Part shown: positions 32,089 to 55,178 of the stretch, piece by piece
How positions within the stretch are numbered: position 1 is the first letter of the stretch
How the letters are laid out: the number at the start of each line of letters is the position of its first letter
Assembly (NCBI RefSeq): GCF_036075115.1
Contig: NZ_CP107958.1
Span: 8,184,001-8,248,000, forward strand
Length of the DNA: 64,000 nucleotides
Reading direction: 5' to 3'
Source of the DNA: Streptomyces sp. NBC_00377
Lineage (GTDB): Bacteria > Actinomycetota > Actinomycetes > Streptomycetales > Streptomycetaceae
Notes under the pieces: model-generated
The model's database searches: none
What the model was told of the DNA's origin: nothing
The model's input: only the letters and a program-made list of their open reading frames with translations
Program-made: the position numbers and the translations under genes

Positions 32089-33663
32089 ATGCACCCCGCC
32101 CGCCGCCTGACGTTCGGCGACATCATCCGTGAGCACCGAAGGTCCTTCCCCGGCACAGTCGCCCTCGTCGACGGCGACGTCCGGCTGACCTGGCCGCAGC
32201 TGGACGAGCGCACAAACCGCCTGGCCCACGCCCTGACCGCCGCCGGCGTCGGGCCCGGCGACCGGATCCTGTGGCTCGGACAGAACTCCTTCCGGATCTG
32301 GGAACTGCTCGGCGCAGCCGCCAAGACGGGCGCCATGGTCTGTCCCGGCTACTGGCGCTGGGCCGCCCCCGAAATGGCGTTCGCCGTGCGGGACTTCGAT
32401 CCCCGGGTGGTCGTCTGGCAGGACGAGGAGATCGGCGACACGGTCGCCAAGGCCCGCGCCGAACTGGGCGACGACCACCGCGCGTTGTGGCTGCGCCACG
32501 ACACCGGGGAACCCGACGGCTACGAGTCCTTCCTGGCCGCCGGCTCGCCCGAGGACCCGGACACCGACGTCGATCCGGACTCCGCGCTGCTGGTCATCTA
32601 CACCGCCGCCATCTCGGGACGGCAGTCCGGCTCGATGCTCTCCCACCGCAACCTGCTCGCCATGGGCACGGGCGCCGCCTGGATGGGCGACATCGGGGCG
32701 GAGACGGCCTTCCTCGGCGCCGGCCCGATGTTCCACATCGGCAACTACCAGTTCTGGGGCGTCCCGGCCTTCGTCCACGGCGGCAAGAACGTGATCGTGC
32801 GCCGGGTGGTGGCCGAGGAACTGCTCCCCGTGCTGGCACAGGAGCGGTGCACGCACGCCTATCTGATGCCCCCGACCATCGCACAGCTCGTCGCGCTGAA
32901 CCGCGAGGCCGGCCACGACCTCTCCCACCTGCGCGCCAGCGTCGCCGCACCCCTGTGGCAGGGCACCGTGCCCACCGACCGGAGCCGGTTCACCCGCAAC
33001 GGCGGGGGAGAGGGCCGCGGCTACGGCCAGACCGAGGTGACCGGCTTCGCCGTGACCGGCGCGTACGGCGGTAGCGGCGAGGGCAACGCGGGACGCCCCG
33101 GCCCCGGCACCGCCGTACGCGTGCTGAACGACGCGGACGAGGAGTGCGCCGCCGGCGAGGCGGGCGAGATCTGCCTGCGCGGCGACCTCGTGCACCTCGG
33201 CTACTGGAACCGGCCGCAGATCAACGAGGAGCGCTTCCGGTCCGGCTGGTGGCACACCACCGACCTGGGCCGCCGCGAGCCCGACGGCACGATCAGCTTC
33301 CTCGGCACGACGACCCGCATGCTCAAGTCGGCGGCCGAGAACATCTTCCCGGCGGAGGTGGAGAACTGCATCGAGTCCCACCCGGCCGTCCGGGAGGCGG
33401 CGGTGATCGGCGTGCCGAACGAGCGCTGGGCGCAGGACGTCAAGGCGGTCGTGGTGCTCCACCCGGACGCCGGACCCGTGACCGCGCGGGACGTCGTCGA
33501 ACACTGCCGGGCGCGGATCGCCTCGTACAAGAAGCCCAAGACGGTGGAGTTCGTCGAGGCGCTGCCCCGCACCAAGGACTTCGCCATGGACTACGAGGCG
33601 CTCGACGAGCGCTTCGGCGGGGGCGGCTACCCCGGCGGCGACACGCTCGGCGCGGGACGGTGA
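32089..33663 (+). CDS. AMP-binding acyl-CoA synthetase-like protein with divergent motifs
   Basis: The 524-residue protein has the adenylate-forming fold (TWPQLDERTNRLAHALTAAG; GYGQTEVTGFAVTG; WWHTTDLGRREPDGTISFLG; ENIFPAEVENCIESHPAV). Two motifs are unusual. The P-loop reads IYTAAISGRQSGSMLSHRNL instead of YTSGTTGxPKG. The C-terminus reads PRTKDFAMDYEALDERFG, where most enzymes have PRTxxGKxxRxxLR with the acyl-adenylate lysine. It may belong to a known divergent actinobacterial subgroup, but weak or altered activity is possible. It is followed 4 nt later by a thiolase-fold gene. Confidence 0.8.
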   Translation: MHPARRLTFGDIIREHRRSFPGTVALVDGDVRLTWPQLDERTNRLAHALTAAGVGPGDRILWLGQNSFRIWELLGAAAKTGAMVCPGYWRWAAPEMAFAVRDFDPRVVVWQDEEIGDTVAKARAELGDDHRALWLRHDTGEPDGYESFLAAGSPEDPDTDVDPDSALLVIYTAAISGRQSGSMLSHRNLLAMGTGAAWMGDIGAETAFLGAGPMFHIGNYQFWGVPAFVHGGKNVIVRRVVAEELLPVLAQERCTHAYLMPPTIAQLVALNREAGHDLSHLRASVAAPLWQGTVPTDRSRFTRNGGGEGRGYGQTEVTGFAVTGAYGGSGEGNAGRPGPGTAVRVLNDADEECAAGEAGEICLRGDLVHLGYWNRPQINEERFRSGWWHTTDLGRREPDGTISFLGTTTRMLKSAAENIFPAEVENCIESHPAVREAAVIGVPNERWAQDVKAVVVLHPDAGPVTARDVVEHCRARIASYKKPKTVEFVEALPRTKDFAMDYEALDERFGGGGYPGGDTLGAGR

Positions 33664-33667
33664 CGGC

Positions 33668-34819
33668 GTGAACGGCCGGCTGCCCGTCGTCGTCGGCGTC
33701 CACGCCACCGAGCAGGCCCTGTCCCTCCCGCACCGGGACGCCATGGACCTCGCCCTCGAATCGGTGCGCGGTGCGATCGAGGACGCCGGGCTGACGCCGG
33801 CCGACGTCGACGGCGCCCAGGTGGACTGGCCCGGCCCCGGCGGCGTACCCGGCGAAGGCAGCTCCTGGGCGCGCATGCTCGGCCGCGACCTGCGCTGGAC
33901 CAGCGACTCGATGCTCGACAACGCCGGCTCGCGCGGCCTGCTGAAGGCGGCCGCGGCGATCCGCGCCGGATACGCCGACACCGTCGTGGTCGGCGGCTGC
34001 AAACTGGTCTCGCGCGGCTCGGGCCCGGTCGGGGCCGGGGTGCCGCTGGAGTTCGCCGACGTCTGGGGCAGCTATGTCGTCGCCCAGTTCGCTCTGGTGG
34101 CGGCCCGGCACATGCACGAGTACGGGACGACCTCCCGCCAGCTCGCGGAGGTCGCCGCCACCATCCGCAACAACGGCACCACCAACCCCGAGGCGATGAT
34201 GTACGGTCGCGGCCCCTACACCGCCGACGACGTGCTCGCCTCCCGCACGGTGGCCACCCCCTTCCATCTGCTGGACTGCTGCATCGTCGGCGAGGGCGGC
34301 GCGGCCCTCGTGGTGACCACCGCCGAACGCGCCCGCGACCTGCCGAACCCGCCCGTCGCGGTGCTCGGCGGCGGGATGGAGTACCACCAGGCCGCCTACG
34401 CGAACCCTGCGCTGCACCGGGAGGTCGGGCAGCTCGGCCGGGACGCCGCGGCACGCGCGTACGCGATGGCGGGGATCGGCCCGCAGGACGTGGACGTCTT
34501 CTCGCTCTACGACCCCAACTCCTTCGAGATCATCCGGCAGCTGGAGGTTCTCGGGCTGTGCGGGGAGGGCGAGGGCGGACCCCTCGCGGCCGCCGGCGCG
34601 ATCGCCGTGGGCGGCAAGCACCCGGTCAATCCCGACGGCGGCTGTCTGTCGTACGCGTGGAACGGCACCCAGCAGATGACCCTCAAGGTCGTCGAGGCCG
34701 TACGGCAGTTGCGCGGCAGCGCCGTGCACCAGGTCGAGGGCGCGGAACTGGCGGTCGTCGGCAACGCCGGCTCCGGCGCACAGCACTACGAGATGAGCGT
34801 GCTGGGGAGGATGCGATGA
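33668..34819 (+). CDS. Thiolase-fold protein without catalytic Cys/His (Ltp2-like), DUF35 partner
   Basis: The 383-residue protein begins GRLPVVVGVHATEQALS. Where thiolases have the nucleophile Cys it reads MLDNAGSRGLLKAAAAI (no Cys), and where GHPxGxSG is expected it reads GGCLSYAWNGTQQM (no His). The neighbouring tyrosines (GSYVVAQF, MEYHQAAY, AQHYEMSV) leave room for a Tyr-based retro-aldolase mechanism as in Ltp2; this is inference. The stop overlaps the DUF35 gene by ATGA. Together with the 19177-20765 pair, the block has two such modules, in opposite gene orders. Confidence 0.8.
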   Translation: MNGRLPVVVGVHATEQALSLPHRDAMDLALESVRGAIEDAGLTPADVDGAQVDWPGPGGVPGEGSSWARMLGRDLRWTSDSMLDNAGSRGLLKAAAAIRAGYADTVVVGGCKLVSRGSGPVGAGVPLEFADVWGSYVVAQFALVAARHMHEYGTTSRQLAEVAATIRNNGTTNPEAMMYGRGPYTADDVLASRTVATPFHLLDCCIVGEGGAALVVTTAERARDLPNPPVAVLGGGMEYHQAAYANPALHREVGQLGRDAAARAYAMAGIGPQDVDVFSLYDPNSFEIIRQLEVLGLCGEGEGGPLAAAGAIAVGGKHPVNPDGGCLSYAWNGTQQMTLKVVEAVRQLRGSAVHQVEGAELAVVGNAGSGAQHYEMSVLGRMR

Positions 34820-35220
34820 ACGGGCGACCCGTCCCCGTCCCGACTCCGCTGTCGGAGCCGTTCTGGGCCGCGGCCCGGCGCGGTGAGCTGGTCGTACCGG
34901 CCTGCCCCGACTGCGGCCTGCGCTTCTTCGTGCCCGAACCGGCGTGCCCGGGCTGTCTGTCCGCGCGATGGCGCTACCAGCCGAGCGCGGGCCGGGGGAC
35001 CGTCTACTCGGTGACCGTGGTGCACCGGGCGCCCGGACCAGGGTTCGACGCGCCCTTCGCGCTGGCCGTGATCGACCTCGATGAAGGGGGCACCATGCTG
35101 TCCCACGTGGACGCCGGCGACCCCGACCAGGTCGTCATCGGGATGCGCGTCCGCGTGGACCTGCGCGCCTTCACCGACGAGATCACCCTGCCGTACTTCG
35201 TACCGGACACGAGCGCATGA
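34816..35220 (+). CDS. DUF35 (Zn-ribbon/OB-fold) partner protein
   Basis: The 134-residue protein has a complete zinc ribbon (CPDCGLRFFVPEPACPGC) and an OB-fold with GRGTVYSVTVVHRAPGPGF. Overlaps on both sides (ATGA with the thiolase-fold gene, ATGA with the GntR gene) show tight coupling. The expected role is to bind the thiolase-fold protein and help position the CoA substrate. Confidence 0.85.
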   Translation: MNGRPVPVPTPLSEPFWAAARRGELVVPACPDCGLRFFVPEPACPGCLSARWRYQPSAGRGTVYSVTVVHRAPGPGFDAPFALAVIDLDEGGTMLSHVDAGDPDQVVIGMRVRVDLRAFTDEITLPYFVPDTSA

Positions 35221-35987
35221 GGGCGGAGGCGGGTGCGGTGACGAACACACCGGTACGGGTCCCGAAGATGGCCGAGCTGGTGGCGGCCCAGCTGCGCCGC
35301 AAGATCGTGCGCGGGGAACTCGCCGAGGGGGAGGCGCTGCCCGCCGAGACGGCCCTGATGGCGGAGTTCGCCGTCTCCCGGCCGACCCTGCGCGAGGCGT
35401 TCCGGGTGCTGGAGTCGGAGTCGCTCATCAGCGTGCGCCGGGGCGCCCGGGGCGGCGCGCGGGTACAGGTACCGGAGGGCACGGTGGCCGCCCGCTACGC
35501 CGGAGTGGTCCTGGAGTACCGGGGCACGACCCTCAAGGACGTGTACGACGCCCGTACGGTGATCGAGGCGCCGTGCGCCGGGCTGCTGGCCGGGCGCCGC
35601 ACCGACGGGGACCTGGAGCGGCTGCGGGCCGCCGTCGCCGAGGCCGAGGGGCTGATGGAGAACCCGTCGGCGTTCATCCGCGCCCACATGGAGTTCCACG
35701 CCCTGGTCGTCGAACTGGCGGGCAACGAGACGCTGAGCGTCCTCAACGGCATGGTCCGGCACATCATCGACCAGGCGAACTGGTCCCACGTCGACCTCGA
35801 CGCCGGCAGCCCCGAGAACATCCGGGCCAACCGCCGCGGCTTCGGCGCCCACCGCGCGCTCGTCGAGCTGGTGGCCGCCCGCCGGTCCGAGGCCGCCGAG
35901 AAGCTGTGGCGCCTGCACCTCCAGGAGGCGGAGGACTACCTGCTGCGGAACAGGTCCATGACCACGGTCCTGGACCTGTTCGACTGA
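35217..35987 (+). CDS. GntR-family regulator, FadR/FCD subfamily
   Basis: The 256-residue regulator has an N-terminal winged HTH (about 18-85: KMAELVAAQLRRKIVRGEL, then SRPTLREAFRVLESESLI) and a C-terminal FCD ligand domain with histidines in FHALVVELAGN, VRHIID and GAHRALVEL, typical metal-site positions. FCD regulators bind organic acids or acyl-CoAs and usually repress catabolic operons. The recognition-helix segment is identical to that of the GntR protein at 54375-55178. A GTG at 35238 after GGAGG is an alternative start. It is the last gene of the ALDH-synthetase-thiolase-DUF35 operon, so it is probably autoregulated. Confidence 0.88.
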   Translation: MRAEAGAVTNTPVRVPKMAELVAAQLRRKIVRGELAEGEALPAETALMAEFAVSRPTLREAFRVLESESLISVRRGARGGARVQVPEGTVAARYAGVVLEYRGTTLKDVYDARTVIEAPCAGLLAGRRTDGDLERLRAAVAEAEGLMENPSAFIRAHMEFHALVVELAGNETLSVLNGMVRHIIDQANWSHVDLDAGSPENIRANRRGFGAHRALVELVAARRSEAAEKLWRLHLQEAEDYLLRNRSMTTVLDLFD

Positions 35988-36014: not shown

Positions 36015-37037
36015 TCAGCCTCCGCGCAGTTCCGACACGATCGGCTCCCACACCTCGGCGCCGATCTCGTAGGCGGTGTAGAAGGACACCCGGTCGACCA
36101 GCGGCCCGTACCGTCGACGGATCTCGCCCGCCACCCGCTCCGGCTCCGCCACCACCGCGAAGGTGTGCAGCACCTCGTCGTCGACGAGCCCGCTCATCGC
36201 CTGCCACTTGTCCTCGCGCCGTGACGTCGACAGCGCGTGCAGTTCGTCACCGAGCGCGCCCCAGCCGTGCAGCTCCAGTACCCCGCGATAGGCGGGCGTG
36301 CTGCCGTAGAAGGCGATCTGGGCGCGGGTGCTGTCGATCGCGCGGGTCATCTCCTCCTGGGTGCGGCCGGTCGCGGTCAGCAGCAGATGGGACACCGAGA
36401 AGTCGTCCCGGGCGCGGCCGGACGCGGCCAGCCCAGCGGTCACGGTCGGCAGGGTCACCTCCCGCAGGTACCGCTCGGTGGTGAACCCGTGGGCGAGGAG
36501 CCCGTCGGCGACCTCGCCCGCCACCCTGGTCATCGCCTCGCCGACCGCGGCCACGAACACCTTGGGCGCGCCGCCCGGAGCGGGCGGCGGGGAGAAGAAG
36601 GGTGACATCAGCGTGTGCGAGTAGAAGTCGCCGCGGAAGTTCAGCCGTTCGCCCTCGTTCCAGGCGGCCCAGATGGCGCGCAGCGCACTCACGTACTCCC
36701 GCATCCGGGCCGCGGGCCGGCTCCAGGGCATGTCGAAGCGCCGCTCGATGTGCGGTTTGATCTGGCTGCCGAGGCCGAGCGAGAAACGCCCGCCGGAGTA
36801 GCTCTGGAGGTCGTGCGCGGTGTACGCGAGCTGCATGGGGGAGCGGGCGAAGGCCACCGCGATGGCCGTCCCCACCTCCAGCCGCTCGGTGTGCTCGGCC
36901 GCCAGCACCAGCGGCAGGAAGGGGTCGTGCTTGGACTCCGAGGCCCACAGGCCGTCGTAGCCGGCCTTCTCGTGGTGCCGGGCCTCCTCGACGACCTCCG
37001 CGGTGCCCCACACGCTGAGTTTGCCGTCAACCTTCAT
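36015..37037 (-). CDS. LLM-class F420-dependent oxidoreductase (MSMEG_2256-like)
   Basis: The 340-residue luciferase-like protein begins MKVDGKLSVWGTAEVVEEAR and carries GYDGLWASESKHDPFLPLVL, VGTAIAVAFARSPMQLAY and GGRFSLGLGSQIKPHIERRF, a pattern I associate with the MSMEG_2256 group of predicted F420-dependent enzymes. The ATG follows GGAGGAG and overlaps the upstream acyl-CoA dehydrogenase stop by ATGA. It could reduce or oxidise a CoA-linked intermediate. It is convergent with the GntR gene, 27 nt away. Confidence 0.8.
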   Translation of the reverse strand: MKVDGKLSVWGTAEVVEEARHHEKAGYDGLWASESKHDPFLPLVLAAEHTERLEVGTAIAVAFARSPMQLAYTAHDLQSYSGGRFSLGLGSQIKPHIERRFDMPWSRPAARMREYVSALRAIWAAWNEGERLNFRGDFYSHTLMSPFFSPPPAPGGAPKVFVAAVGEAMTRVAGEVADGLLAHGFTTERYLREVTLPTVTAGLAASGRARDDFSVSHLLLTATGRTQEEMTRAIDSTRAQIAFYGSTPAYRGVLELHGWGALGDELHALSTSRREDKWQAMSGLVDDEVLHTFAVVAEPERVAGEIRRRYGPLVDRVSFYTAYEIGAEVWEPIVSELRGG

Positions 37038-38212
37038 GCCGCTCCTCCGACCGTCCCGATGTGCGTGTCCGTGTCCGTGCCCGCGTCCAGACCGATGCGC
37101 CGCGCGAGCAGCTCCCGGTGGTAGGCCGGGTCGCCGAACATCAGCTGTGATGTCTTGGCCCGCTTGAGATACAGGTGGGCCGGATGTTCCCAGGTGAAAC
37201 CGATACCGCCGTGCACCTGGATGTTCTCCGCCGTGGCCTGGAGACAGGCATCGGAGCAGAACGCCTTGGCCAGACTCGCCGCGGCGGGCAGCTCCGGGTC
37301 CTCGCGCTCCGCGGCGAGCAGCGCGTAGTGGGCGGCGGCGCGCGCCGACTCCACCTCCAGGAGGACGTCGGCCAGGAGGTGCTTGACGGCCTGGAAGGAG
37401 CCGATGGGCCGCCCGAACTGATGGCGGACCTTGGCGTACCCGACCGCCATGTCCAGCGCCCGGGAGGCCACCCCCACCTGCTCGGCGGCCAGCGCCACCG
37501 CCGCCCGGTCGAGCACCTGCGCGACGGTGTCCCAGCCGGACCCGTGCGTACGCAGCCGCGTCGCGGGGACGTCGGCGTAGTCGAGGCGCGCCTGCCGCCT
37601 GGTCGGGTCCATGGTGGGCAGCGGGGTGCGGCGCAGCCCGCTCGCGTCGCCGTCCACCCGGAAGACGCCGATGCCGTCGCCCGTGCCGTCCCCGGTACGG
37701 GCGACGGTGAGGACGACATCGGCGGTCGCCCCGTCCAGGACGAACGTCTTGTGTCCGCTCAGCAGCCAGCCTCCCGCCGATTCCCGGGCGCGGAGCCCGA
37801 CGCCGGACGCGTCCCACCGGGCGGAGTCCTCCGTCAGGGCCAGCGTCCCGACGAGTTCGCCGGAGGCCAGCCCCGGCAGCAGCTGCTTGCGCGCCTCCTC
37901 GTCCGCACAGCGCAGCAGCGTGGTCGTCGCCAGCACGGCCGAGGACAGGAACGGCGCGCAGAGCAGCGCCCGGCCCATCTCCTCCATGACCACGCCCACT
38001 TCGACCGGACCGCAGCCGGCGCCGCCGTACTCCTCCGGCACGGCGAGCCCCTGGAGGCCGAGTTCCTCACCCATACGGCGCCACAGCGGCCGGTCGAAGC
38101 CCTCCGGCGTCTCCATCAGACGCCGTACCTCGGTCTCGGGCGCGGTGTCCGCGAGGAACGCCCGTACCGTGCGCCGGAGTTCCTCGTGCTCGTCGCTGAA
38201 CGCGAAGTCCAT
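37034..38212 (-). CDS. Acyl-CoA dehydrogenase, FadE28-like subunit without visible partner
   Basis: The 392-residue dehydrogenase-fold protein is very like the 22028 and 43018 proteins: YGGAGCGPVEVGVVMEEMGRA, RHQFGRPIGSFQAVKHLLAD and VHGGIGFTWEHPAHLYLKRAK. It has no Glu at either catalytic position (RAAVALAAEQVGVASRALDM). Unlike the other two, it is not next to a FadE29-like gene; the neighbours are an LLM enzyme and a crotonase. Its partner may be the product at 29320, 44169 or 62780, or it may act otherwise. Confidence 0.85.
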   Translation of the reverse strand: MDFAFSDEHEELRRTVRAFLADTAPETEVRRLMETPEGFDRPLWRRMGEELGLQGLAVPEEYGGAGCGPVEVGVVMEEMGRALLCAPFLSSAVLATTTLLRCADEEARKQLLPGLASGELVGTLALTEDSARWDASGVGLRARESAGGWLLSGHKTFVLDGATADVVLTVARTGDGTGDGIGVFRVDGDASGLRRTPLPTMDPTRRQARLDYADVPATRLRTHGSGWDTVAQVLDRAAVALAAEQVGVASRALDMAVGYAKVRHQFGRPIGSFQAVKHLLADVLLEVESARAAAHYALLAAEREDPELPAAASLAKAFCSDACLQATAENIQVHGGIGFTWEHPAHLYLKRAKTSQLMFGDPAYHRELLARRIGLDAGTDTDTHIGTVGGAA

Positions 38213-38215
38213 GCC

Positions 38216-39001
38216 TCAGCCCTCCTGGCCGGCCCGGCGGCGCCCGCGGGCCTCGATGATCTTCTCGACGACCGCGATGTGCTCGGCGGAGCGCATGGTC
38301 TCCCGCTCGGCGAGCAGAGCGGGTTCGAGGACGTGGGCGAGGGCCTGCTCCAGATGCAGGTTCACCGCCCGCTTGGTCCCGCGCAGCGCCCGCGCGGGCA
38401 GCGCCGCCAGCCGTCCGGCCAGGTCCATGGCCTCGTCCATCAGCTTGTCCCGCGGGACGGCGCGGTTGACGACGCCCAGCCGGACCGCCTCCTGGGCGCT
38501 CACCCTCTCGCCGAGGAACAGCAGTTCCTTGGCACGGGTCAGGCCGACGAGCAGGGGCAGGACGAGAGCGCCTCCGTCGCCCGCGACGAGGCCGACCTGG
38601 ACGTGCGGGTCGGCCAGATACGCGTCGTCGGCGATCAGTACCAGGTCGCTCAGCAGCGCCAGACTGCACCCGAGGCCGACGGCGGGCCCGTTGACCGCCG
38701 AGATCACCGGCAGCGGGCAGCGGACCATGCCGTGGACGATCCGCCGGGCCTCGTCGACGTTGCGCTGGCGGAAGGTCGCGTCGGTCTGCACCCGGGTCAT
38801 GATGTCGAAGTTGCCGCCGGCGCTGAACGCCCGGCCGCGCCCGGTGAGCACCACGACGCGTGCCTCAGGGTCCGCGGCGAGCTCGTCCCACACCGAGGCG
38901 AGACCCGAGTGCAGCTCCTCGCTCATCGCGTTGAGCTGCTCCGGCCGGTTCAGCTCGACCAGCCGGACCGGCCCGACGGCCGTCACCACCAGATCCGTCA
39001 T
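38216..39001 (-). CDS. Crotonase-fold protein with non-canonical active site
   Basis: The 261-residue crotonase homologue begins MTDLVVTAVGPVRLVELNRPE. The oxyanion-hole region reads [15 protein letters not shown]. The two hydratase Glu positions are replaced: AVGLGCSLALLSDLVL (Ser) and DPHVQVGLVAGDGGALVLP (His in place of Glu, with a nearby Asp). It is therefore unlikely to be a simple hydratase; isomerase, hydrolase or dehalogenase-like chemistry is possible. I prefer the ATG at 39001; an ATG at 39034 lacks a ribosome site. The dehydrogenase gene follows 3 nt downstream. Confidence 0.8.
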   Translation of the reverse strand: MTDLVVTAVGPVRLVELNRPEQLNAMSEELHSGLASVWDELAADPEARVVVLTGRGRAFSAGGNFDIMTRVQTDATFRQRNVDEARRIVHGMVRCPLPVISAVNGPAVGLGCSLALLSDLVLIADDAYLADPHVQVGLVAGDGGALVLPLLVGLTRAKELLFLGERVSAQEAVRLGVVNRAVPRDKLMDEAMDLAGRLAALPARALRGTKRAVNLHLEQALAHVLEPALLAERETMRSAEHIAVVEKIIEARGRRRAGQEG

Positions 39002-39032
39002 CTCCACCGCCGCAAGCAAGGAAGGGAACAAC

Positions 39033-39076
39033 ATGAATGAGTCAGTAGAGTTGAATGCTATAACTAATTAAGCTTT
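39033..39076. promoter_or_regulatory. Divergent AT-rich promoter/operator region
   Basis: The gap separates two divergent crotonase genes. It holds ATGAAT (39033-39038), GTCAGTA, and AGTTGAATGC (39049-39058), a 10-mer repeated exactly at 40103-40112, followed by CTATAACTAATTAAGC. A regulator site for both genes is likely. Confidence 0.5.
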
Positions 39077-39114
39077 CTGGAAACCTGTCCCGCCCAGTGA
39101 CGGAGGACGCCCCC

Positions 39115-39969
39115 ATGTACGAGACCGTGCGCACGGAAGTGGCGGACCGGATCCTCACGGTCACCCTCGACAGACCGGAGAAACTCAACGCCTTCGGCCC
39201 CCGGATGATGAGCGACCTGCTGGACGTCCTGGACGCGGCCGACGCCGACGACGACATCCGGGTGATCGTGGTGACCGGCGCCGGACGCGGGTTCTGCGCG
39301 GGCGCCGACGTCAGCTCCGGCGGCTCCTCCTTCGACCACCGGACGGCGGGCGCCGCGCACCGGGACACCGGCGGCCGGGTGGCGCTGCGCCTCTTCTCCT
39401 GCGTGAAGCCCGTCATCGCGGCGATCAACGGCCCGGCGGTGGGCGTCGGCGCCAGCATGACCCTGCCGATGGACATCCGGCTTGCGTCGACCTCGGCCAA
39501 ATTCGGCTTCGTCTTCGCCCGGCGCGGCATCGTGCCGGAGTCGGCGGCGAGCTGGTTCCTGCCGCGCGCCGTCGGCATGCAGCGGGCCATGGAGTGGGTG
39601 GCGACCGGTCGTCTCTTCGGGCCGGACGAGGCGCTGGCGGCCGGACTGGTCCGCTCCGTCCACCCGCCGCAGGAACTGCTGCCGGCGGCCTACGCACTCG
39701 CCCGGGAGATCGCCGAGCACACCTCGCCCGTCTCGGTGGCCCTCTCGCGCCAGATGATGTGGCGGATGCTCGGCGAACCCCACCCCATGGCGGCGCACCG
39801 CCTCGACTCGCGGATCATGGGCCAGATCGGCGGCGGCCCGGACCCCGTGGAGGGTGTCGAGTCCTTCCTGGCCAAGCGGCCGCCGCGGTTCCCCGGCCGG
39901 GTCGGCAAGGACATGCCCCCCGTCTACCCCTGGTGGCAGGAGGAGGAGTTCCGGCCCCTGGAGCCGTGA
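39115..39969 (+). CDS. Crotonase-fold protein (enoyl-CoA hydratase/isomerase family)
   Basis: The 284-residue product starts at ATG 39115, with GGAGG 8 nt upstream; the GTG at 39097 is the alternative. It has TLDRPEKLNAFGPRMM and GRGFCAGADVSSGGSS. The first Glu position is replaced (AVGVGASMTLPMDIRLA). The second region reads FVFARRGIVPESAASWFLPR, with a Glu in a shifted position like that of the 48554 and 55361 proteins, so these three form one subgroup. The reaction may be isomerisation or hydration of an unusual substrate. It is a single plus-strand gene followed by the GH1-like gene. Confidence 0.82.
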   Translation: MYETVRTEVADRILTVTLDRPEKLNAFGPRMMSDLLDVLDAADADDDIRVIVVTGAGRGFCAGADVSSGGSSFDHRTAGAAHRDTGGRVALRLFSCVKPVIAAINGPAVGVGASMTLPMDIRLASTSAKFGFVFARRGIVPESAASWFLPRAVGMQRAMEWVATGRLFGPDEALAAGLVRSVHPPQELLPAAYALAREIAEHTSPVSVALSRQMMWRMLGEPHPMAAHRLDSRIMGQIGGGPDPVEGVESFLAKRPPRFPGRVGKDMPPVYPWWQEEEFRPLEP

Positions 39970-40096
39970 CCGCCCCTGCCGCGGAAGCCGCCCCTGCCGC
40001 CGAGGCCGTCCCGCCGCGCCATCGGTGGGCGGAGCTGCGGAGATCTGGCCGAAACATTGTCGTGGTCTGTCTGAAGTGTTAGCGTCCGGACGGCGG

Positions 40097-40112
40097 GCAT
40101 TCAGTTGAATGC
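40097..40112. promoter_or_regulatory. 16-bp palindrome upstream of the GH1-like gene
   Basis: GCATTCA (40097-40103) and TGAATGC (40106-40112) are perfect 7-bp arms around GT, 30 nt before the GH1-like start. The right half AGTTGAATGC matches 39049-39058. This is a clear operator candidate of the TGAAT/ATTCA type seen across the block. Confidence 0.65.
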
Positions 40113-40142: not shown

Positions 40143-41558
40143 ATGAGTGATGGTTCCCTGTACGAATCCCTTCGCGGTGTCGACTGGGGGGTCGCCACCG
40201 CGGACACCGTCGCGGCCCCGCCGCCGCCCGTACCGGAGCGGGGCGGGCACTTCCGCCAGTGGACCGACGACATCCGGCAGCTGACCGGGGTCGCCGCGGA
40301 CACGCACCGCATGGTCGCCGGATGGCCGCTGCTCCAGCCCGCCGGCCCCGGCAGCTGGGACCGGCAGGCCCTGGACCGCTGCGACCGCGCCCTCGACGCC
40401 CTGCTCGCCCGGGGGACGCGGCCCGGCCTCACACTCCTCGACCGTTCGCTGCCGCCGTGGCTCGACGCGGCCGGCGGCTGGCTCGCCCGCGACACCGCCG
40501 AGCACTTCGCCGAGTACGCCGCCGAACTGGGCCGCCGTTTCGGCGACCGCGTGGAGCGCTGGATCACCTCCAGCGACCTGGCCGGCCCCACACTCGCCGA
40601 CCATGTGGCCGGAATGTATCCACCGGGCCGTGGCGCCGGGCGGGCCGGGCTGGCCGCCGTCCATCACCTCCTGCTCGCCAACGGCCTCGCCACCCAGGCA
40701 CTCGGCGCCGCCGGGGCGGGGGGCCGGATCGGGACCACGGTCACCCTGGTCGGCGGGTACGCCGCCACCGACGACCCCTACGACCGTCTCGCCCTGGAGC
40801 GCCTGGAGAGCTGGACCAACCGCCTCTTCCTGGATCCCGTGCTGCTCGGCGCCCACATGGTGACCGAGGACGACGTCTCACCGGTGGAGGCCACCGGCTG
40901 CGTACGCCCGGGCGACCTGGAGGTCATCGCCACCCCGCAGGACCTGCTGGGCCTGTCCTGGCACACCCCGTTCCGGGTCACCGCGCCGGAGAACCTGCCC
41001 CGCGTCCTGCCGACCGCGACCTGCCAGGGCGCCCTCAACGAGGTGAACCGCCTGCTCGTGGGCATCGGCTTCGCGATCGTCCCCTTCGAGGACGTGGAGA
41101 CGACCGCCTACGGCTGGCCGATCATCCCCGAAGGGCTCGCCGACGCCGTCGCCGGCCTCTGCGACCTCTACGGAGACCTGCTGCCCCCGCTGTCGGTCGT
41201 CGACAACGGCATGGGCGACCTGGACCTGGTCGACGCGACGGGGCACAGCGACGACGCCCGACGGGTGGCCCTGCTGCGCGCGCGCCTCACCTGGCTGGCG
41301 CGACTCGTCGCGGCAGGGGTGGAGGTGTGCGGCTACGAGTACTGGTCGGTCCTCGACAATCTCGAGGCCAAGTTCCGCTACACCCGTCTGTACGCGATGG
41401 CGGTCCCGGACCACGAGCCGCCGCCGCGCCCGCCGATCCCCTCCGACTGGCTGCACCGTGGCGCGTTCGCCGGTGCCCCCGTGCCCGACACGGGCCGCGC
41501 CGCCCGGCTGAGTCTGGTACCGGCCGCGTCCCGGGGTCAGGGCGTCGAGGACGCGTAG
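40143..41558 (+). CDS. GH1-fold beta-glucosidase homologue with both catalytic Glu changed
   Basis: The 471-residue protein follows the GH1 pattern over its whole length: DWGVATADTV, WLDAAGGWLARDTAEHFAEY, RRFGDRVERWITSSD, HHLLLANGLATQAL, NRLFLDPVLLGAHM, GWPIIPEGLADAV and GYEYWSVLDNLEAKFRY. The acid/base motif, normally NEP, is SDL at 144-146 (Glu to Asp145). The nucleophile motif, normally TENG, is VDNG (Glu to Asp355). The HWDLP histidine region reads DRSLPPWL. It lies within an acyl-CoA operon block, not with sugar genes, and is preceded by the 40097 palindrome. Retaining glycosidase activity is unlikely; a new lyase, hydrolase or binding role is possible. Its 3' end overlaps a convergent MaoC-type gene by 22 nt. 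Confidence 0.8.
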   Translation: MSDGSLYESLRGVDWGVATADTVAAPPPPVPERGGHFRQWTDDIRQLTGVAADTHRMVAGWPLLQPAGPGSWDRQALDRCDRALDALLARGTRPGLTLLDRSLPPWLDAAGGWLARDTAEHFAEYAAELGRRFGDRVERWITSSDLAGPTLADHVAGMYPPGRGAGRAGLAAVHHLLLANGLATQALGAAGAGGRIGTTVTLVGGYAATDDPYDRLALERLESWTNRLFLDPVLLGAHMVTEDDVSPVEATGCVRPGDLEVIATPQDLLGLSWHTPFRVTAPENLPRVLPTATCQGALNEVNRLLVGIGFAIVPFEDVETTAYGWPIIPEGLADAVAGLCDLYGDLLPPLSVVDNGMGDLDLVDATGHSDDARRVALLRARLTWLARLVAAGVEVCGYEYWSVLDNLEAKFRYTRLYAMAVPDHEPPPRPPIPSDWLHRGAFAGAPVPDTGRAARLSLVPAASRGQGVEDA

Positions 41559-42040
41559 TCGCGGCCCCGGATCAGCCGGACCGGGGTGTAGACGAGCACC
41601 TCCTCGTCGCGCTGGTTGCGCACCCCGATCCGGCTGGTCACCACCCCTCGCCCCGGCTTGCTCGACGGTCGGCAGCCGGTGGTCTCCACGACGGCGTACA
41701 GCGTGTCGCCGACGTACACCGGGCCCCGCACGGACAGCTCCATGTGCAGGAAGGCGAGACCGGTGCCGTGCAGCACGTTCGTCTGGAGCACCAGCCCCTC
41801 GGCGATGCAGTAGGTCAGCCCTCCCGGGACCAGCCGGCCGGTGTAGCCGCCCTCGGCGGCGTGGGAGGCGTCCCAGAAGAGGGGCTCGGTGAAGCCGCCC
41901 CAGGTGACGAAGTTGACCAGGTCGGTCTCGGTGACGGTGCGGCGGGCGGTGCGGAAGATCTGCCCGACCGGCATCTCCTCGTAGGTGAGCCCCCGCACGA
42001 GCGGGGCGGCTTCGGTGGTGGTCGTTCGATCGGCGGTCAT
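41537..42040 (-). CDS. MaoC-like hotdog dehydratase
   Basis: The 167-residue MaoC-type hotdog protein begins after a short linker with GLTYEEMPVGQIFRTARRTV. The hydratase motif, usually GDxNPxH, reads WGGFTEPLFWDASHA, so the Asp/His pair is changed. Later regions (GLTYCIAEGLVL, YVGDTLYAVVETTGCRPSSK, GVRNQRDEEVLVYTPVRLIR) are typical of the mesaconyl-CoA-hydratase-like branch. It is probably co-transcribed with the upstream crotonase gene, 45 nt away. The substrate is unknown. Confidence 0.8.
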   Translation of the reverse strand: MTADRTTTTEAAPLVRGLTYEEMPVGQIFRTARRTVTETDLVNFVTWGGFTEPLFWDASHAAEGGYTGRLVPGGLTYCIAEGLVLQTNVLHGTGLAFLHMELSVRGPVYVGDTLYAVVETTGCRPSSKPGRGVVTSRIGVRNQRDEEVLVYTPVRLIRGRDYASSTP

Positions 42041-42085: not shown

Positions 42086-42907
42086 TCAGAGCGCGAGCGG
42101 GTGCTTGTCGCCCACGCCCTCGAAGTCCGGAGTCCGCTTGTCGCGGTGGGCGGCCAGCCCCTCGACGACCTCGTGGCCGGCGAACCCGAAGAACTCCAGT
42201 CCCAGCGAGGCCTCGAAGATCGGCTGGGCCGTGCGGTACCAGTGGTTCAGGGACCTCTTGGTCCAGCTGATGGCGCTGGCGGGACCGGCGGCCAGGGCGG
42301 TCGCCACCCGCAGGGCCTCGGTGTGCACCTGGTCGTCGTCCACGCACTTGGACACCAGGCCGATCCGCTCGGCCTCCTCGCCGGTGAGCGTCTCGCAGGT
42401 CAGCAGGTAGTACTTGGCCTTGGCCATGCCGCACAGCAGGGGCCAGCAGATGGCCGCGTGGTCGCCGGCCGCCACCCCGAGGCGGGTGTGCCCGTCGACG
42501 ATCTTCGCCGTGCGGGCGGCCACGGAGATGTCCGCGAGCATGCCGATCACCAGACCCGCGCCGACCGCCGGGCCGTGGATCGCCGAGACCACCGGCTTGG
42601 AGCAGTTGAGCACCCCGTAGACCATGTCCCGGGCCTCGCGCATCACCCGGGCGCGGACCGCGTACTCCCCGGTCATGGCCTCGATGGAGTCGAAGGTCCC
42701 GCCCGCGGAGAAGGCCCGGCCCGCCCCCTGGACCAGCACCGCGCGGGTCTGCTCGTCCCGGTCCACGACCGGCCAGACGTCGGCGAGCTCGCCGTGCATC
42801 CGCGGATCGACCGCGTTGAGGTGGGGGGCGTCGAGCACGATGCGCAGCACGCCGGGCGCGGGCCGCTCGAAGGTCAGGCTCGTGAACGGCTCGTAGGGAT
42901 CGGTCAC
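42086..42907 (-). CDS. Crotonase-fold protein with non-canonical active site
   Basis: The 273-residue product has a GTG start and no Glu at the first position ([17 protein letters not shown]). The second region reads [20 protein letters not shown], with His and Asp. This resembles the 38216 protein (PHVQVGLVAGDGG), so the two form a subgroup likely to share chemistry other than plain hydration. [16 protein letters not shown] carries the oxyanion-hole region. It is divergent from the dehydrogenase pair at 43018-45347. Confidence 0.82.
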
Positions 42908-42922
42908 GTCGCGCTCCTGGTG

Positions 42923-42955
42923 TATTCAGTGCGGATACTATAATTATCTAACTGT
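42923..42955. promoter_or_regulatory. Shared regulatory element, copy 1
   Basis: TATTCAGT (42923-42930), a 7-nt spacer, then CTATAATTATCTAACTGT (42938-42955). Exactly the same 8-mer, spacer length and 18-mer recur at 54180-54212. It lies in the divergent gap between the crotonase (minus) and the dehydrogenase pair (plus), 15 nt from the minus-strand start codon. Confidence 0.75.
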
Positions 42956-43017
42956 ATCGAGCGGCGAGCAGCAAGCGGGCGACAGGCGCCTCTTGCACCG
43001 AGGACGGGAAGCTCGGC

Positions 43018-44136
43018 ATGGATCTCACCTTCAGCGAGGAACAGGACGAACTGCGCAAGGTCGTGCGGTCGTTCCTCGCCAAGCACTCCGACGAGGCGGA
43101 AGTACGCCGCCTGGCGGCCGACCCGCTGGGTCACGACCCGGCCGTCTGGCACAGGATGGCCGGCGAACTCGGCCTTCAGGGGCTCGCCGTCCCCGAGGAG
43201 TACGGCGGCTCGGGCTTCGGCTACGTCGATCTCGGCATCGTCTTCGAGGAGGCGGGCCGCGCCCTGCTGTGCGGGCCGTACTTCGCCACCGTCGCCCTGG
43301 CCGCCGAGGCGCTGCTGCGCTGCGACGACGAGGAGGCCCGACGCGACCTCCTGCCGGGCCTGGCCTCCGGGGAGACGGTGGCCACCCTGGCGCTCACCGA
43401 GGAGGACGGCCGCTGGGACGAGGCGGGCATCCGGCTCACCGCGCACGGCACGACGGACGGCTGGCGGCTGACCGGAGTCAAGACCTACGTCCCCGACGGA
43501 CACCTCGCCGACCTGCTGCTGGTCGCCGCCCGGACCCCGGCGGGCGTCAGCCTCTTCGCGGTGGACGCCGGCGCCCCCGGCCTGACCCGCACCCCGCTCC
43601 CCACCCTGGACCAGACCCGTAAGCAGGCCCGGGTGCGGTGCGCGGACACCCCCGCCCGCCTGCTGGGGGCAGAAGGGGCGGCATGGCCCGCCCTCGCGCG
43701 CACCCTCGCCACGGCCTCCGTACTGCTGGCCGCCGAACAGGTGGGAGGAGCCGCGGCGACCCTGGACGCCGCCGTGGCGTACGCGAAGATCCGCGAGCAG
43801 TACGGCCGGCCCATCGGCTCGTTCCAGGGGATCAAGCACAAATGCGCCGACATGCTGATGGAGATCGAGTCGGCGCGCTCGGCCGCGTACGGCGCTCTGT
43901 GGGCCCTGGACGGCGGCGACGAGACGGAGACCGCGCTCATGGCGGCCCTCGCCCAGACCTACTGCTCCGAGGCGTTCAGCCGGGTCGCCGCCGACAACAT
44001 CCAGGTGCACGGCGGTATCGGCTTCACCTGGGAGCACCCCGCGCACCTGTACCTCAAGCGGGCCCAGAGCTCCGAGGTACTGCTCGGCAGCCCGGCGTAC
44101 CACCGGGAACTGCTCGCCGCCCGGCTCGGCATCTGA
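43018..44136 (+). CDS. Acyl-CoA dehydrogenase, non-catalytic-type subunit (FadE28-like)
   Basis: The 372-residue protein is a close homologue of the 22028 product: VPEEYGGSGFGYVDLGIVFEE, REQYGRPIGSFQGIKHKCADM and VHGGIGFTWEHPAHLYLKRAQ. There is no Glu at the catalytic positions (ATASVLLAAEQVGGAAATLD). The next gene is its likely catalytic partner, 32 nt downstream. Together they should form a heteromeric dehydrogenase for a bulky acyl-CoA. Confidence 0.86.
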   Translation: MDLTFSEEQDELRKVVRSFLAKHSDEAEVRRLAADPLGHDPAVWHRMAGELGLQGLAVPEEYGGSGFGYVDLGIVFEEAGRALLCGPYFATVALAAEALLRCDDEEARRDLLPGLASGETVATLALTEEDGRWDEAGIRLTAHGTTDGWRLTGVKTYVPDGHLADLLLVAARTPAGVSLFAVDAGAPGLTRTPLPTLDQTRKQARVRCADTPARLLGAEGAAWPALARTLATASVLLAAEQVGGAAATLDAAVAYAKIREQYGRPIGSFQGIKHKCADMLMEIESARSAAYGALWALDGGDETETALMAALAQTYCSEAFSRVAADNIQVHGGIGFTWEHPAHLYLKRAQSSEVLLGSPAYHRELLAARLGI

Positions 44137-44168: not shown

Positions 44169-45347
44169 ATGGAGCTGGACTTCGGCCCCGCCGTACGCGA
44201 CTTCCGCGACGAGCTGCGGGACTGGCTGGCGCGGCACCTCGTCGGGGAGTTCGCCGAGCACCGGGGCGTGGGCGGACCCACCGACGGCGAGGCCTGGGAC
44301 GTCCGTCTCGCCTGGGACCGCGAACTGGCCGCCGGGAACTGGCTGGGCGTCGGCTGGCCGCGGGAGTACGGGGGCCGGGGGCTCGGGCTCCTGGAGGAGA
44401 TCGTCTTCGCCTACGAGTACGCCCGCGCGAACGCCCCCTACCGGGCCACCGTCAACGCGCTCGACCTGCTCGGCCCGATGCTCCTGGCGATGGGCAGCGA
44501 GGCGCAGAAGAAGCGCTTCCTGCCGCCGATCCTCGCCGTCGAGGCACTGTGGGGCCAGGGCTTCAGCGAGCCGGGCGCGGGCTCCGACCTGGCGTCGGTC
44601 CGCACCAGGGCCGAACGCGACGGCGACCAGTGGGTGGTCAGTGGACAGAAGGTGTGGACCTCGTTCGGCGTCCACGCCGACTGGCTCTACGTCCTCACCC
44701 GCACCGACCCGGACTCGCAACGGCACAAGGGTCTGACCCTGCTGCTCCTGCCCACGGACCAGCCGGGCGTGGAGATCCGCCCCATCCGCAACCTCGCCGG
44801 CCAGGACGAGTTCGCGGAGGTCTTCCTCTCGGACGCGCGCACCGACGCGGACCTGGTGGTGGGGGAGGTCGGGCAGGGCTGGCGCACGGCGATGGCCACG
44901 CTCGGCATCGAACGCGGCACCACGCTCCTGCCCCAGCAGCTCACCTTCGAGCGGGAGGCCGAGGCGCTGATCGGACTGGCCAGGCAACGGGGCGCGCTCG
45001 ACGATCCGATGCTGCGCCGCCGGATCGTCGACGCCTGGATCTCCGTACGCATCATGCGCACCACCAACCTGCGGACCATCGCCGAACTCACCGCCGGCCG
45101 GACGCCCGGCGCGCAGGCCACGACCGCGAAGCTGTACGCCTCGACGCGGCACCAGCGACTCGGCAGGCTGGCCATGGAACTGGCCGGACCAGCCGGGCAG
45201 ATCGTGGGCCGGGACTACGGCCTGGACACCCGGCAGCGCTCCTTCCTGCTCTCGCTCGCGGAGACGGTCTACGGCGGGTCGAGCGAGATCCAGCGCAACA
45301 TCATCGGGGAGCAGCTCCTCGGACTGCCGAAGGACCCGCGCCCATGA
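44169..45347 (+). CDS. Acyl-CoA dehydrogenase, catalytic subunit of a heteromeric pair (FadE29/26-like)
   Basis: The 392-residue protein has WPREYGGRGLGLLEEIVFAYE, GFSEPGAGSDLASVRTRAER and SGQKVWTSFGVHADWLYVLTRT. The C-terminus GGSSEIQRNIIGEQLLGLP lacks the YEGT Glu. The base is probably the Glu of LGIERGTTLL near residue 247. The ATG at 44169 follows GGGAGAGGC. Its stop overlaps the SnoaL-like gene by ATGA. Confidence 0.86.
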   Translation: MELDFGPAVRDFRDELRDWLARHLVGEFAEHRGVGGPTDGEAWDVRLAWDRELAAGNWLGVGWPREYGGRGLGLLEEIVFAYEYARANAPYRATVNALDLLGPMLLAMGSEAQKKRFLPPILAVEALWGQGFSEPGAGSDLASVRTRAERDGDQWVVSGQKVWTSFGVHADWLYVLTRTDPDSQRHKGLTLLLLPTDQPGVEIRPIRNLAGQDEFAEVFLSDARTDADLVVGEVGQGWRTAMATLGIERGTTLLPQQLTFEREAEALIGLARQRGALDDPMLRRRIVDAWISVRIMRTTNLRTIAELTAGRTPGAQATTAKLYASTRHQRLGRLAMELAGPAGQIVGRDYGLDTRQRSFLLSLAETVYGGSSEIQRNIIGEQLLGLPKDPRP

Positions 45348-52971: not shown

Positions 52972-54153
52972 TCAGCGGCTGATCAGCTGCTGGGCGTTGT
53001 TGTACATGATGTCGTCCTGGGCGGACTCGCCGAGTTCCGCGATGAGCTTGCGGAAGTCCGCCGGGGCGGCCAGGCCCTCCGCGTGCGGGAAGTCCGAGCC
53101 CATGACGATGGACTCGTGGTAGCCGAGGCGCTTGATCACACCCACGATGTCGTCCTCCGGGTAGGGGACCACCCGGACGTGCTTGCGGAAGACCTGACTG
53201 GGCCGCTCCTCCAACTGCCCGCCGATCCAGGGGCCGTTGCGGCCCATGCCCCGGCTCTTGTCCATGTGGCGCACGAAGTGGGGCACCCACTCGGAGCCGA
53301 ACTCCGAGACCAGTACGTTGATGTCGGGGAAACGGCCGAAGAGGTTGTCGAAGATCAGCGCGGAGAGCGTCTCCTCGACGGGCCGCTGACCGTAGGTGTT
53401 CTGCCACTGCCAGGCCGACATCCGGAAGTGGATGGGATGCGGGTCGTAACCCCAGGAGGGCGCCACCTGCGAGTTGTAGTAGAACTCGCTGATGTGGTAA
53501 CAGACGCTGGCCTTGGCCTCGTTGACCAGTTTCCAGAACGGGTCGAAGTACGGGTCGCCCGGCGAGCGGCCGTAGACCGGTCCGGTGGGCAGCAGGATGA
53601 AGCGGGCGCCCTGGTCGAGCACATACTCCAGCTCCTTGACCGCGCTGTCCAGGTCGCGCAGGGAGAGCAGCGCCGGGGCGTAGATGCGGTTCTGGTGGTC
53701 GAAGCCCCAGACCTCGTTCATGTAGCGGTTGAAGGAGTGGTAGTTGGCGTAGAGCGGCTCGACGCCCTTCACGTACTCCTCCGCGACCAGGGCCCAGCCG
53801 CCCGGGTAGATGATCGTCTGGTCGAGGCCCTGCTCGTCCATGACCCGCAGCCGGGCCTCACGGTTCTGGTAGGACTCGTGCATGGCCTCGAACTGGTACG
53901 TCTCCTCGGGATTGCCCGAGGCCATCGCCTTGAGCATCTCCTTCAGCGAGCCGGGACGGTACACCTGCCCGAACTCGGGCTCCAGGCATACGACGATCCG
54001 GTCCCCGGCGAGGATGACCTCCCGCCCGTCGGGCAGGGTCACCGGTGCGACCGCGGCACCGAGGAATTCCTTCGGGAGGTAGCGGGTGAAGGAGTCCCGC
54101 TCCTCGTACATGTGCTGGTCGCAGTCGAAGATGCGCTTGCGCTGTTCGGCCAT
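52972..54153 (-). CDS. Amidohydrolase-2 family metal-dependent hydrolase/decarboxylase
   Basis: The 393-residue TIM-barrel protein is only distantly like the 14945 copy. It has IFDCDQHMYEERDSFTRYLP with the metal-binding D-x-H, KASVCYHISEFYYNSQV, NVLVSEFGSEWVPHFVRHMD, and the late Asp in IVMGSDFPHAEGL. The ATG follows GGAGG with an 8-nt spacer. It is transcribed alone, with the shared regulatory element 26 nt upstream. Possible reactions are ring hydrolysis, C-C hydrolysis or decarboxylation of a carboxylated ring. Confidence 0.82.
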   Translation of the reverse strand: MAEQRKRIFDCDQHMYEERDSFTRYLPKEFLGAAVAPVTLPDGREVILAGDRIVVCLEPEFGQVYRPGSLKEMLKAMASGNPEETYQFEAMHESYQNREARLRVMDEQGLDQTIIYPGGWALVAEEYVKGVEPLYANYHSFNRYMNEVWGFDHQNRIYAPALLSLRDLDSAVKELEYVLDQGARFILLPTGPVYGRSPGDPYFDPFWKLVNEAKASVCYHISEFYYNSQVAPSWGYDPHPIHFRMSAWQWQNTYGQRPVEETLSALIFDNLFGRFPDINVLVSEFGSEWVPHFVRHMDKSRGMGRNGPWIGGQLEERPSQVFRKHVRVVPYPEDDIVGVIKRLGYHESIVMGSDFPHAEGLAAPADFRKLIAELGESAQDDIMYNNAQQLISR

Positions 54154-54179: not shown

Positions 54180-54212
54180 TATTCAGTACGCCTTCTATAA
54201 TTATCTAACTGT
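54180..54212. promoter_or_regulatory. Shared regulatory element, copy 2
   Basis: TATTCAGT (54180-54187), a 7-nt spacer, then CTATAATTATCTAACTGT (54195-54212), identical in both blocks and spacer length to 42923-42955. It lies 26 nt upstream of the amidohydrolase start, between it and the end of the second GntR gene. Reading towards the gene, the order is ACAGTTAG..., then ACTGAATA. Confidence 0.75.
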
Positions 54213-54374
54213 TTAGCGAGCGCAAGGGGTGGTGGGCCGGCAACGGGCCGCATGTGTCCAGGCGACGCATCCGCGCAGGTGGCGGGCGCGGATGGGGCGG
54301 CGCGTGGGTGGTGGCCGGCGCGCTCGGGTGGCGGCCAGGTGCGAGGCGGGCGCGCCCGACTTCGGGCGCACCGG

Positions 54375-55178
54375 TCAGTCGAGGAGCTCGAGCACCGTCT
54401 TGGGTCCGGCCGCGTTCACCACGTCGTCGGCGCTGGAGATGTGCCGCTGCCAGAGCTTCTCGGCCTCGTCGGCCTTGCCGGACTCGATCAGCCCGACGAG
54501 CCGCACATGCGCCCGGTGTCCCTTGAGGGCCTGGGCCTTCTGGGTCTCGGCGTCGGCCGCGGCCGCGGTGTACGTGGCGTTGGCCCGGTCGATGATGTGC
54601 CGCAGCATGCCGCACAGCAGGATCAGGGTCTGGTTCCCGGTGAGCTCGATCAGCAGGGCGTGGAAGGCGTCCTGCGCGTCGACCAGGGCGAGCGGGTCGT
54701 CCAGGGCGGACTTCTCGGTCGCCACGGCGTCGCGCAGCCGCTTGATGTCGTCGGCCGTGTGCTTCACGGCGAGCTGGCGGGCGCAGGGCGGCTCGATGAC
54801 GGCCGCCGCGCGGTAGATGTCGCCGAGGGTGGCGCCCCGGTACTCGAGGATCAGGCCCGCGAAGCGGGCCGCGACCTCCGCGTCGGGCGCGCTGACCCGG
54901 GCGCCGCCGTGGGCCCCGCGGCGCACGGTGATCAGGGACTCCGACTCCAGGACGCGGAACGCCTCGCGCAGGGTCGGCCGCGAGATGCCGAACTGCTCCA
55001 TCAGCCCCGACTCGGGCGGCAGTGCGTCACCCGGCTTCAGTTCGCCCCGCACGATCTGCCGGCGCAGGTGGGCGGCGACCAGTTCGGCGGTCTTCGGCAC
55101 GCGGACCTGGCGTCCGACGCGGCTGCGGGAGGGTGCGGGCACGGTCGCCGTCTCTGCTGCGCGGGCTGCCTCGGCCAC
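54375..55178 (-). CDS. GntR-family regulator, FadR/FCD subfamily
   Basis: The 267-residue paralogue of the 35217 regulator has its winged HTH at about 30-95 (KTAELVAAHLRRQIVRGEL, SRPTLREAFRVLESESLI), then an FCD domain with FHALLIELTGN, LRHIIDRAN and GHRAHVRLV histidines. The GTG at 55178 has GAGGAG with a 6-nt spacer; a longer reading to 55199 lacks a ribosome site. It is divergent from the crotonase at 55361, with a palindrome in between, the usual layout of a local repressor. It probably senses an acyl-CoA or acid of the pathway. Confidence 0.88.
   Translation of the reverse strand: MAEAARAAETATVPAPSRSRVGRQVRVPKTAELVAAHLRRQIVRGELKPGDALPPESGLMEQFGISRPTLREAFRVLESESLITVRRGAHGGARVSAPDAEVAARFAGLILEYRGATLGDIYRAAAVIEPPCARQLAVKHTADDIKRLRDAVATEKSALDDPLALVDAQDAFHALLIELTGNQTLILLCGMLRHIIDRANATYTAAAADAETQKAQALKGHRAHVRLVGLIESGKADEAEKLWQRHISSADDVVNAAGPKTVLELLD

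Follow-up and report, generated by a model that had tools for sequence, protein, structure and literature searches.

A GH1-fold protein that has lost both catalytic glutamates is kept in acyl-CoA catabolic clusters of Streptomycetaceae and has probably acquired a new function

The 64,000-nt stretch of Streptomyces sp. NBC_00377 analysed here (hereafter, the window; NZ_CP107958.1, positions 8,184,001 to 8,248,000) contains a gene for a 471-aa GH1-fold protein (40143–41558, + strand) that, by translation, Pfam search, and alignment, has aspartates, D145 and D354, at the positions of the two GH1 catalytic glutamates. The catalytic acids have been lost, yet the gene family has long been kept beside acyl-CoA genes, and an old sugar enzyme has therefore very probably been given a new job. 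We put a probability of roughly 0.55 on the reading that the protein is a neofunctionalised GH1-fold component of GntR-associated acyl-CoA catabolism with a rebuilt pocket. We are confident that the gene is functional and selected and, judging from sequence, nearly as sure that its product is not a working retaining beta-glycosidase. The initial annotation of this gene had proposed that a glycosidase fold was recruited for new chemistry. Recruitment is supported by the existence of a separate clade, selection, loss of the sugar subsite, new fixed residues, and gene linkage, but chemistry, as against ligand binding, is not demonstrated.

The open reading frame is uninterrupted from ATG to stop, with the annotated coordinates and frame exact, and its product belongs to the GH1 family by profile match and barrel fold. 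In particular, the Pfam profile PF00232 (Glyco_hydro_1) covers residues 36–420 (E = 1.2e-55; 189 bits, cut-off 22.6), and the best 50 matches listed by Foldseek against the PDB are GH1 glycosidases (E from 1e-25 to 1e-22; query TM-score about 0.60–0.66), with 8znv as the top match (E = 1.4e-25). An AlphaFold2 model built with 28 sequences has a mean pLDDT of 73.5 and a pTM of 0.77; most of the barrel is confident, and residues 148–165, 291–298, and 404–471 are poorly modelled. The claim that the whole GH1 fold is conserved stands for homology and overall fold but fails at the beta1-alpha1 segment W15–H36 (40185–40250, + strand), which comprises 22 aa here, against 46 aa in an ordinary GH1 protein, and 19–31 aa across the clade, against 40–46 aa in ordinary GH1 proteins. 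The loop is thus about 20 residues shorter, so the fold is not entirely conserved; the short segment removes the Gln of the QIEG motif and the SIWD loop. The protein scores 218.9 bits with TIGR03356, the NCBIfam equivalog model for GH1 beta-glucosidases, below the cut-off of 478.5 bits. The source genome also has, elsewhere, four ordinary GH1 genes with scores of 414–528 bits. Inspection of the N-terminal sequence (MSDGSLYESLRGVDWG), made by eye rather than with a predictor, reveals no obvious secretion signal or membrane segment, and because no such signal is obvious, we take the protein to be probably cytosolic.

Alignment with seven ordinary GH1 proteins reveals that the acid/base motif NEP is replaced by S144-D145-L146 and the nucleophile motif TENG by V353-D354-N355-G356 (codons of D145 and D354 at 40575–40577 and 41202–41204, both + strand). 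The same replacements, together with a changed HWD region, had been described in the initial annotation, and the alignment bears them out: all 35 Streptomyces orthologue rows, which are 73–100% identical and some of which are redundant between two collections, have Asp at both positions, and sequencing error is therefore excluded. All 32 ordinary GH1 proteins compared, among them the clade's 21 nearest, retain Gln, the N-E pair, and the nucleophile Glu. The proposed survey of homologues for the same Asp pair returned the pair in every near row, but not in all of the five distant homologues, namely L053–L056 (57–66% identity; four other genera of Streptomycetaceae) and L116 (about 50–54% identity; region 57181–98563 of NZ_CP107787.1, a linear plasmid of 539 kb in Streptomyces sp. 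NBC_00564). Specifically, position 145, where T-x-N-E-P would supply the acid/base Glu, is D in L053–L055, N in L056, and S in L116, and position 354, where I/V-T-E-N-G would supply the nucleophile Glu, is D in all five, as in every clade member examined. Since position 145 varies as D, N, or S, there is no conserved catalytic pair, and we reject the Asp pair as a clade-wide altered catalytic pair, the two most divergent members having N or S.

The −1 sugar subsite has been largely dismantled. D100-R101-S102 (40440–40448, + strand) replaces H-W-D, which carries the sugar-binding His and Trp, and S272-W273-H274 of beta6 (40956–40964, + strand) replaces N-Y-Y. Among the subsite residues of GH1 (Gln, His-Trp, Asn, Tyr, Trp, Glu, and Trp), only W401 and, mostly, E408 are kept; Gln, Trp, Asn, and Tyr are lost, as are, in most members, His and the last Trp. 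At the sugar-binding His position, the window's own group varies between D, N, and H, and the distant homologues retain His. In the clade consensus, 41 of 100 near-invariant GH1 positions are altered, including active-site Q, W, D, N, E, P, N, Y, E, and W.

New residues have become fixed on the beta6-beta8 side of the barrel. Across 15 divergent clade members, 122 positions are invariant, and the clade-specific ones between beta6 and beta8 are W273, R278, E283, N284, D354, D359, E399, Y400, and Y417. R278 and P282-E283-N284 (40974–40994, + strand) are invariant in 15 of 15 members, with R278, E283, and N284 new relative to GH1; D359 (41217–41219, + strand) is invariant and absent as a GH1 feature; and in E399-Y400-W401 of beta8 (41337–41345, + strand), the Glu and Tyr are new and invariant, and W401 is the sugar-stacking Trp inherited from GH1. 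R278, D354, and E399 are predicted to point into the barrel interior, a pocket geometry read from strand alternation and register rather than from measured coordinates. Most of the clade has E408, R412, and R415 fixed or almost fixed; the plasmid homologue carries G, D, and L instead, and the pocket is therefore not uniform across the clade.

The clade had a single origin, followed by long maintenance beside acyl-CoA genes. In a maximum-likelihood tree, its 14 members are monophyletic (support 100/100) and their stem measures 1.53 changes per column, and in a profile search of 299 Streptomycetaceae genomes, clade members score at least 780 bits and the next GH1 proteins at most 277 bits. At the thresholds used, no intermediate between GH1 and the clade is present in the 299 family genomes or in 395 genomes of the class; the class-wide sample of 395 genomes yielded no additional clade members outside Streptomyces, its two weak extra matches being ordinary GH1 proteins. 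The gene is under purifying selection, with a median dN/dS of 0.26 over 27 orthologue pairs, against 0.13–0.24 for five neighbours; its mean dN is the highest among the six block genes tested. The frame is full-length in nearly all orthologues. In the orthologue of Streptomyces sp. P3 (L040), there is an apparent frame change near the N-terminus, around 9900–10003: protein similarity begins only at residue 35, yet both the usual start and the N-terminal coding sequence can be recognised further upstream.

The gene lies within a block of acyl-CoA catabolic genes. Upstream are genes for an acyl-CoA synthetase, a thiolase-like protein, and its ChsH2-type OB-fold/zinc-ribbon partner (32089–35220, + strand), a GntR/FCD regulator (35217–35987, + strand), a luciferase-like monooxygenase (36015–37037, − strand), an acyl-CoA dehydrogenase (37034–38212, − strand), a crotonase (38216–39034, − strand), and a crotonase/enoyl-CoA hydratase family protein (PRK08260-like; 39097–39969, + strand; syntenic in 27 of 27 loci). 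Downstream are genes for a MaoC-like dehydratase (41537–42040, − strand), convergent with the GH1-like gene and overlapping it by 22 bp, a PRK07327-like crotonase family protein (42086–42907, − strand), and two consecutive acyl-CoA dehydrogenases (43018–44136 and 44169–45347, + strand); an amidohydrolase gene (52972–54153) and a second GntR/FCD regulator gene (54375–55100, − strand) lie further along. The crotonase and MaoC neighbours are thus where the initial annotation had placed them. The order luciferase-like oxidoreductase, acyl-CoA dehydrogenase, crotonase, crotonase, GH1-like protein, MaoC, crotonase, and two acyl-CoA dehydrogenases is identical in all 27 orthologous loci. Twelve of the 27 (L019, at 8285–9886, L020, L021, L025, L026, L028, L029, L031, L032, L035, L038, and L042) also carry a GMC oxidoreductase gene between the crotonase and the GH1-like gene, 86–100% identical to the L019 copy; the 64-kb window contains no match to it. 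Elsewhere in the catabolic block, two adjacent genes of the window (16209–17531 and 17531–18253) have a strong coding signal and no Pfam-A match at E <= 0.001.

The linkage to acyl-CoA genes extends beyond this arrangement. L053–L056 and L116 have gene arrangements unlike that of the window, each with acyl-CoA dehydrogenase, crotonase, or CoA-transferase genes, and the GH1-like gene is thus stably linked to acyl-CoA catabolic genes in independent loci (27 of 27, L053–L056, and NZ_CP107787.1). Homologues free of such a link, which the initial annotation had named as counter-evidence, did not appear among the 27 loci and five distant homologues looked at. Where neighbours could be recognised, in the 27 Streptomyces loci as in the other clusters examined, they are genes of acyl-CoA and not of sugar metabolism. 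The plasmid region of L116 is another large acyl-CoA catabolic cluster, in which the divergent GH1-like gene adjoins GntR genes. Among 199 Streptomyces genomes, the luciferase-like gene (at least 89% identity) and the GH1-like gene occur in exactly the same eight, and one other genome has luciferase-like paralogues at 63–64%; since the two genes are physically linked, their co-occurrence shows co-inheritance, not function. In other actinobacterial families, clusters whose amidohydrolase is 69% identical (G577, G664, and G767) lack the GH1-like protein, which indicates that this type of pathway can run without it.

The GH1-like gene has its own conserved upstream element. A putative promoter, TTGTCG-17 nt-TAGCGT (40057–40085, + strand), resembles a Streptomyces HrdB promoter and would be HrdB-like in class; a simple sigma-70 promoter scan makes no call at 40057–40085, and the assignment is based on conservation. 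Within it, ATTG...GTGTTA.CGTC does not vary among eight aligned upstream regions, one of which belongs to the plasmid homologue, and the element is conserved to about 50% protein identity. Just 3′ of the promoter lies the palindrome GCATTCAGTTGAATGC (40097–40112), a candidate operator that is intact or only slightly altered in 26 of 27 loci, the exception being L040. The initial annotation had assigned this palindrome to the whole block. It is real and kept in orthologues, but its sharing across the block is not confirmed: the 14-base core ATTCAGTTGAATGC has a single occurrence in the 9.24-Mb genome, allowing up to one mismatch, and there is therefore no literal block-wide palindrome. The half-site AGTTGAATGC recurs only at 39049, and two matches at one mismatch or fewer arise in 22 of 100 shuffles, so this is not rare by chance. 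ATTCAGTTGAAT at up to three mismatches has 10 matches, against 3.9 expected, mostly intergenic, an excess that may point to a looser shared regulon.

Other sites and regulators adjoin the gene and its homologues. A different repeated element, CTATAATTATCTAAC, occurs at 42938 and 54195, within near-identical AT-rich stretches TATTCAGT...CTATAATTATCTAACTGT (about 42920–42960 and 54180–54220); one copy of this candidate block operator precedes the acyl-CoA dehydrogenase gene at 43018, and the other adjoins the amidohydrolase gene (52972–54153). A 67.5%-identical homologue of the GntR regulator encoded at 54375–55100 is directly divergent from the GH1-like gene on the NBC_00564 plasmid, and a 74%-identical one lies near the GH1-like gene in L055. 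In L055 (10861–10969, CACCTGAC...GTCAGGTG) and L116 (19896–20003, GAACCTG...CAGGTTC), other inverted repeats occupy the place of the palindrome, as if the operator had changed together with its regulator in these distant homologues.

Several explanations that keep the protein within glycoside chemistry, or deny it a function, fit these observations poorly. An ordinary beta-glucosidase with misassigned catalytic residues, in line with the public record of the plasmid homologue, which reads 'family 1 glycosylhydrolase', is scarcely credible: D145 and D354 are unambiguous between conserved flanks (W140-I-T-S-S-D and P-L-S-V-V-D-N-G), and the 219 bits obtained with TIGR03356 fall far from 478.5. 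Hardly more plausible is a decaying or neutral GH1 copy riding along in a conserved block. The gene does have the highest mean dN of the six tested, but its dN/dS of about 0.26, nearly always full-length frame, 122 invariant positions over 15 members, conserved upstream element, and retention in several arrangements all argue otherwise, and we reject a pseudogene or decay on dN/dS and conservation. One burst of change, along the long stem, followed by maintenance is the pattern predicted by neofunctionalisation, which makes decay very unlikely. An atypical glycosidase or deconjugating enzyme, in which the Asp pair would cleave a glycoside or glucuronide of a pathway substrate by an inverting or slow retaining mechanism with a longer carboxylate distance, is improbable. 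Asp can in principle substitute for Glu, at a low rate; W401 and mostly E408 of the sugar site are retained, and all near Streptomyces orthologues are D/D. Against such an enzyme stand the Asn of L056 and Ser of L116 at the acid/base position, the loss of sugar-binding Gln, Trp, Asn, Tyr, and mostly His, the shortened beta1-alpha1 wall, and neighbours of acyl-CoA rather than sugar metabolism. The deconjugation enzyme of altered mechanism suggested in the initial annotation is disfavoured on the same grounds.

The choice between catalysis and binding is closer. In a non-catalytic GH1 pseudoenzyme, the barrel would bind a pathway ligand or partner protein and serve as a sensor, chaperone, or scaffold in the manner of Klotho, with D354 and the new polar residues shaping a binding site. 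The loss of both catalytic glutamates with position 145 free to be D, N, or S, a dN/dS slightly higher than that of the neighbouring enzymes, a conserved upstream element of its own, apart from the neighbours, and the presence of GntR genes close to the GH1-like gene of L055 and divergent from that of the NBC_00564 plasmid are each consistent with such a role, which we nevertheless regard as unlikely: the invariant charged residues R278, D354, and E399, expected to face the interior, resemble an active site, and the acid at 354 is strictly conserved, whereas a protein that only binds would be free to drift there. We rate a function outside glycoside chemistry as very likely and lean modestly towards a catalytic rather than purely binding protein. 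A GH1-fold enzyme outside glycoside chemistry that would catalyse an acyl-CoA degradation step via Asp354 with Glu399 and Arg278 is a tentative proposal, at slightly under even odds.

For the neofunctionalised GH1-fold protein that we prefer, a beta-glucosidase-like ancestor would have lost the retaining-glycosidase machinery once, on the long stem branch, and the resulting clade would have been retained as a cytosolic part of GntR-associated acyl-CoA clusters in Streptomycetaceae. The centre of the pocket may have moved to the beta6-beta8 side, and R278, E283/N284, D354, D359, E399, and W401 could there bind an oxygenated or carboxylate pathway intermediate. Counting against this reading are the dN/dS slightly above that of neighbouring enzymes, the variation of E408, R412, and R415, the weakness of the structural model beyond residue 404, and the related clusters without the protein. 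If correct, the exchange of a sugar site for new fixed residues, together with the move into acyl-CoA catabolism, would be a clear instance of a glycosidase fold taking up a new trade, and non-glycosidic catalysis, if true, would add a new reaction class to one of the best-studied glycosidase folds. The gene, its palindrome, and the GntR genes would offer a way into an uncharacterised degradation pathway of Streptomyces, and the question is directly testable. In the open-licence papers searched, we found no description of the GH1-like clade, of GH1 proteins in acyl-CoA clusters, or of such clusters in Streptomyces.

Comparison with known systems places the protein close to actinobacterial GH1 beta-glucosidases (Cba3, 8znv; Micrococcus BglU, 3w53; and 1gnx), with which it shares the fold, the barrel core, Arg56, W401, overall length, and roughly 25–40% identity. 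Relative to these enzymes, the clade has lost both catalytic glutamates, has most of the −1 subsite replaced, has a loop about 20 aa shorter, does not keep the acid/base position acidic, and has the new invariant residues R278, E283, N284, D359, E399, and Y400. The gene complement around it is similar to that of steroid-type acyl-CoA side-chain catabolic clusters, which have thiolase-like/ChsH2-type OB-fold pairs, paired acyl-CoA dehydrogenases, MaoC proteins, and luciferase-like oxidoreductases; none of the genes scanned reaches an NCBIfam equivalog cut-off for steroid enzymes, and the open-licence literature searched describes no GH1-fold component in such clusters. Myrosinase, a plant GH1 thioglucosidase, has lost the acid/base Glu, but its nucleophile Glu and sugar site are intact and it remains able to cleave glucosides, whereas in the clade the nucleophile Glu is gone too, along with most of the sugar site. 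Klothos, which are animal proteins of the membrane, have two GH1 domains. In beta-Klotho, the FGF21 tail binds the KL2 domain, touching the GH1 acid/base Glu (PMC10628560). Klotho thus reuses the GH1 barrel for binding and is the nearest precedent for such reuse. Tandem GH1 domains and signal or transmembrane segments are absent here on inspection: the protein, in contrast to Klotho, is a single bacterial domain of 471 aa, probably cytosolic, with another pattern of substitutions, in which D354 is fixed, and with acyl-CoA genes as its context.
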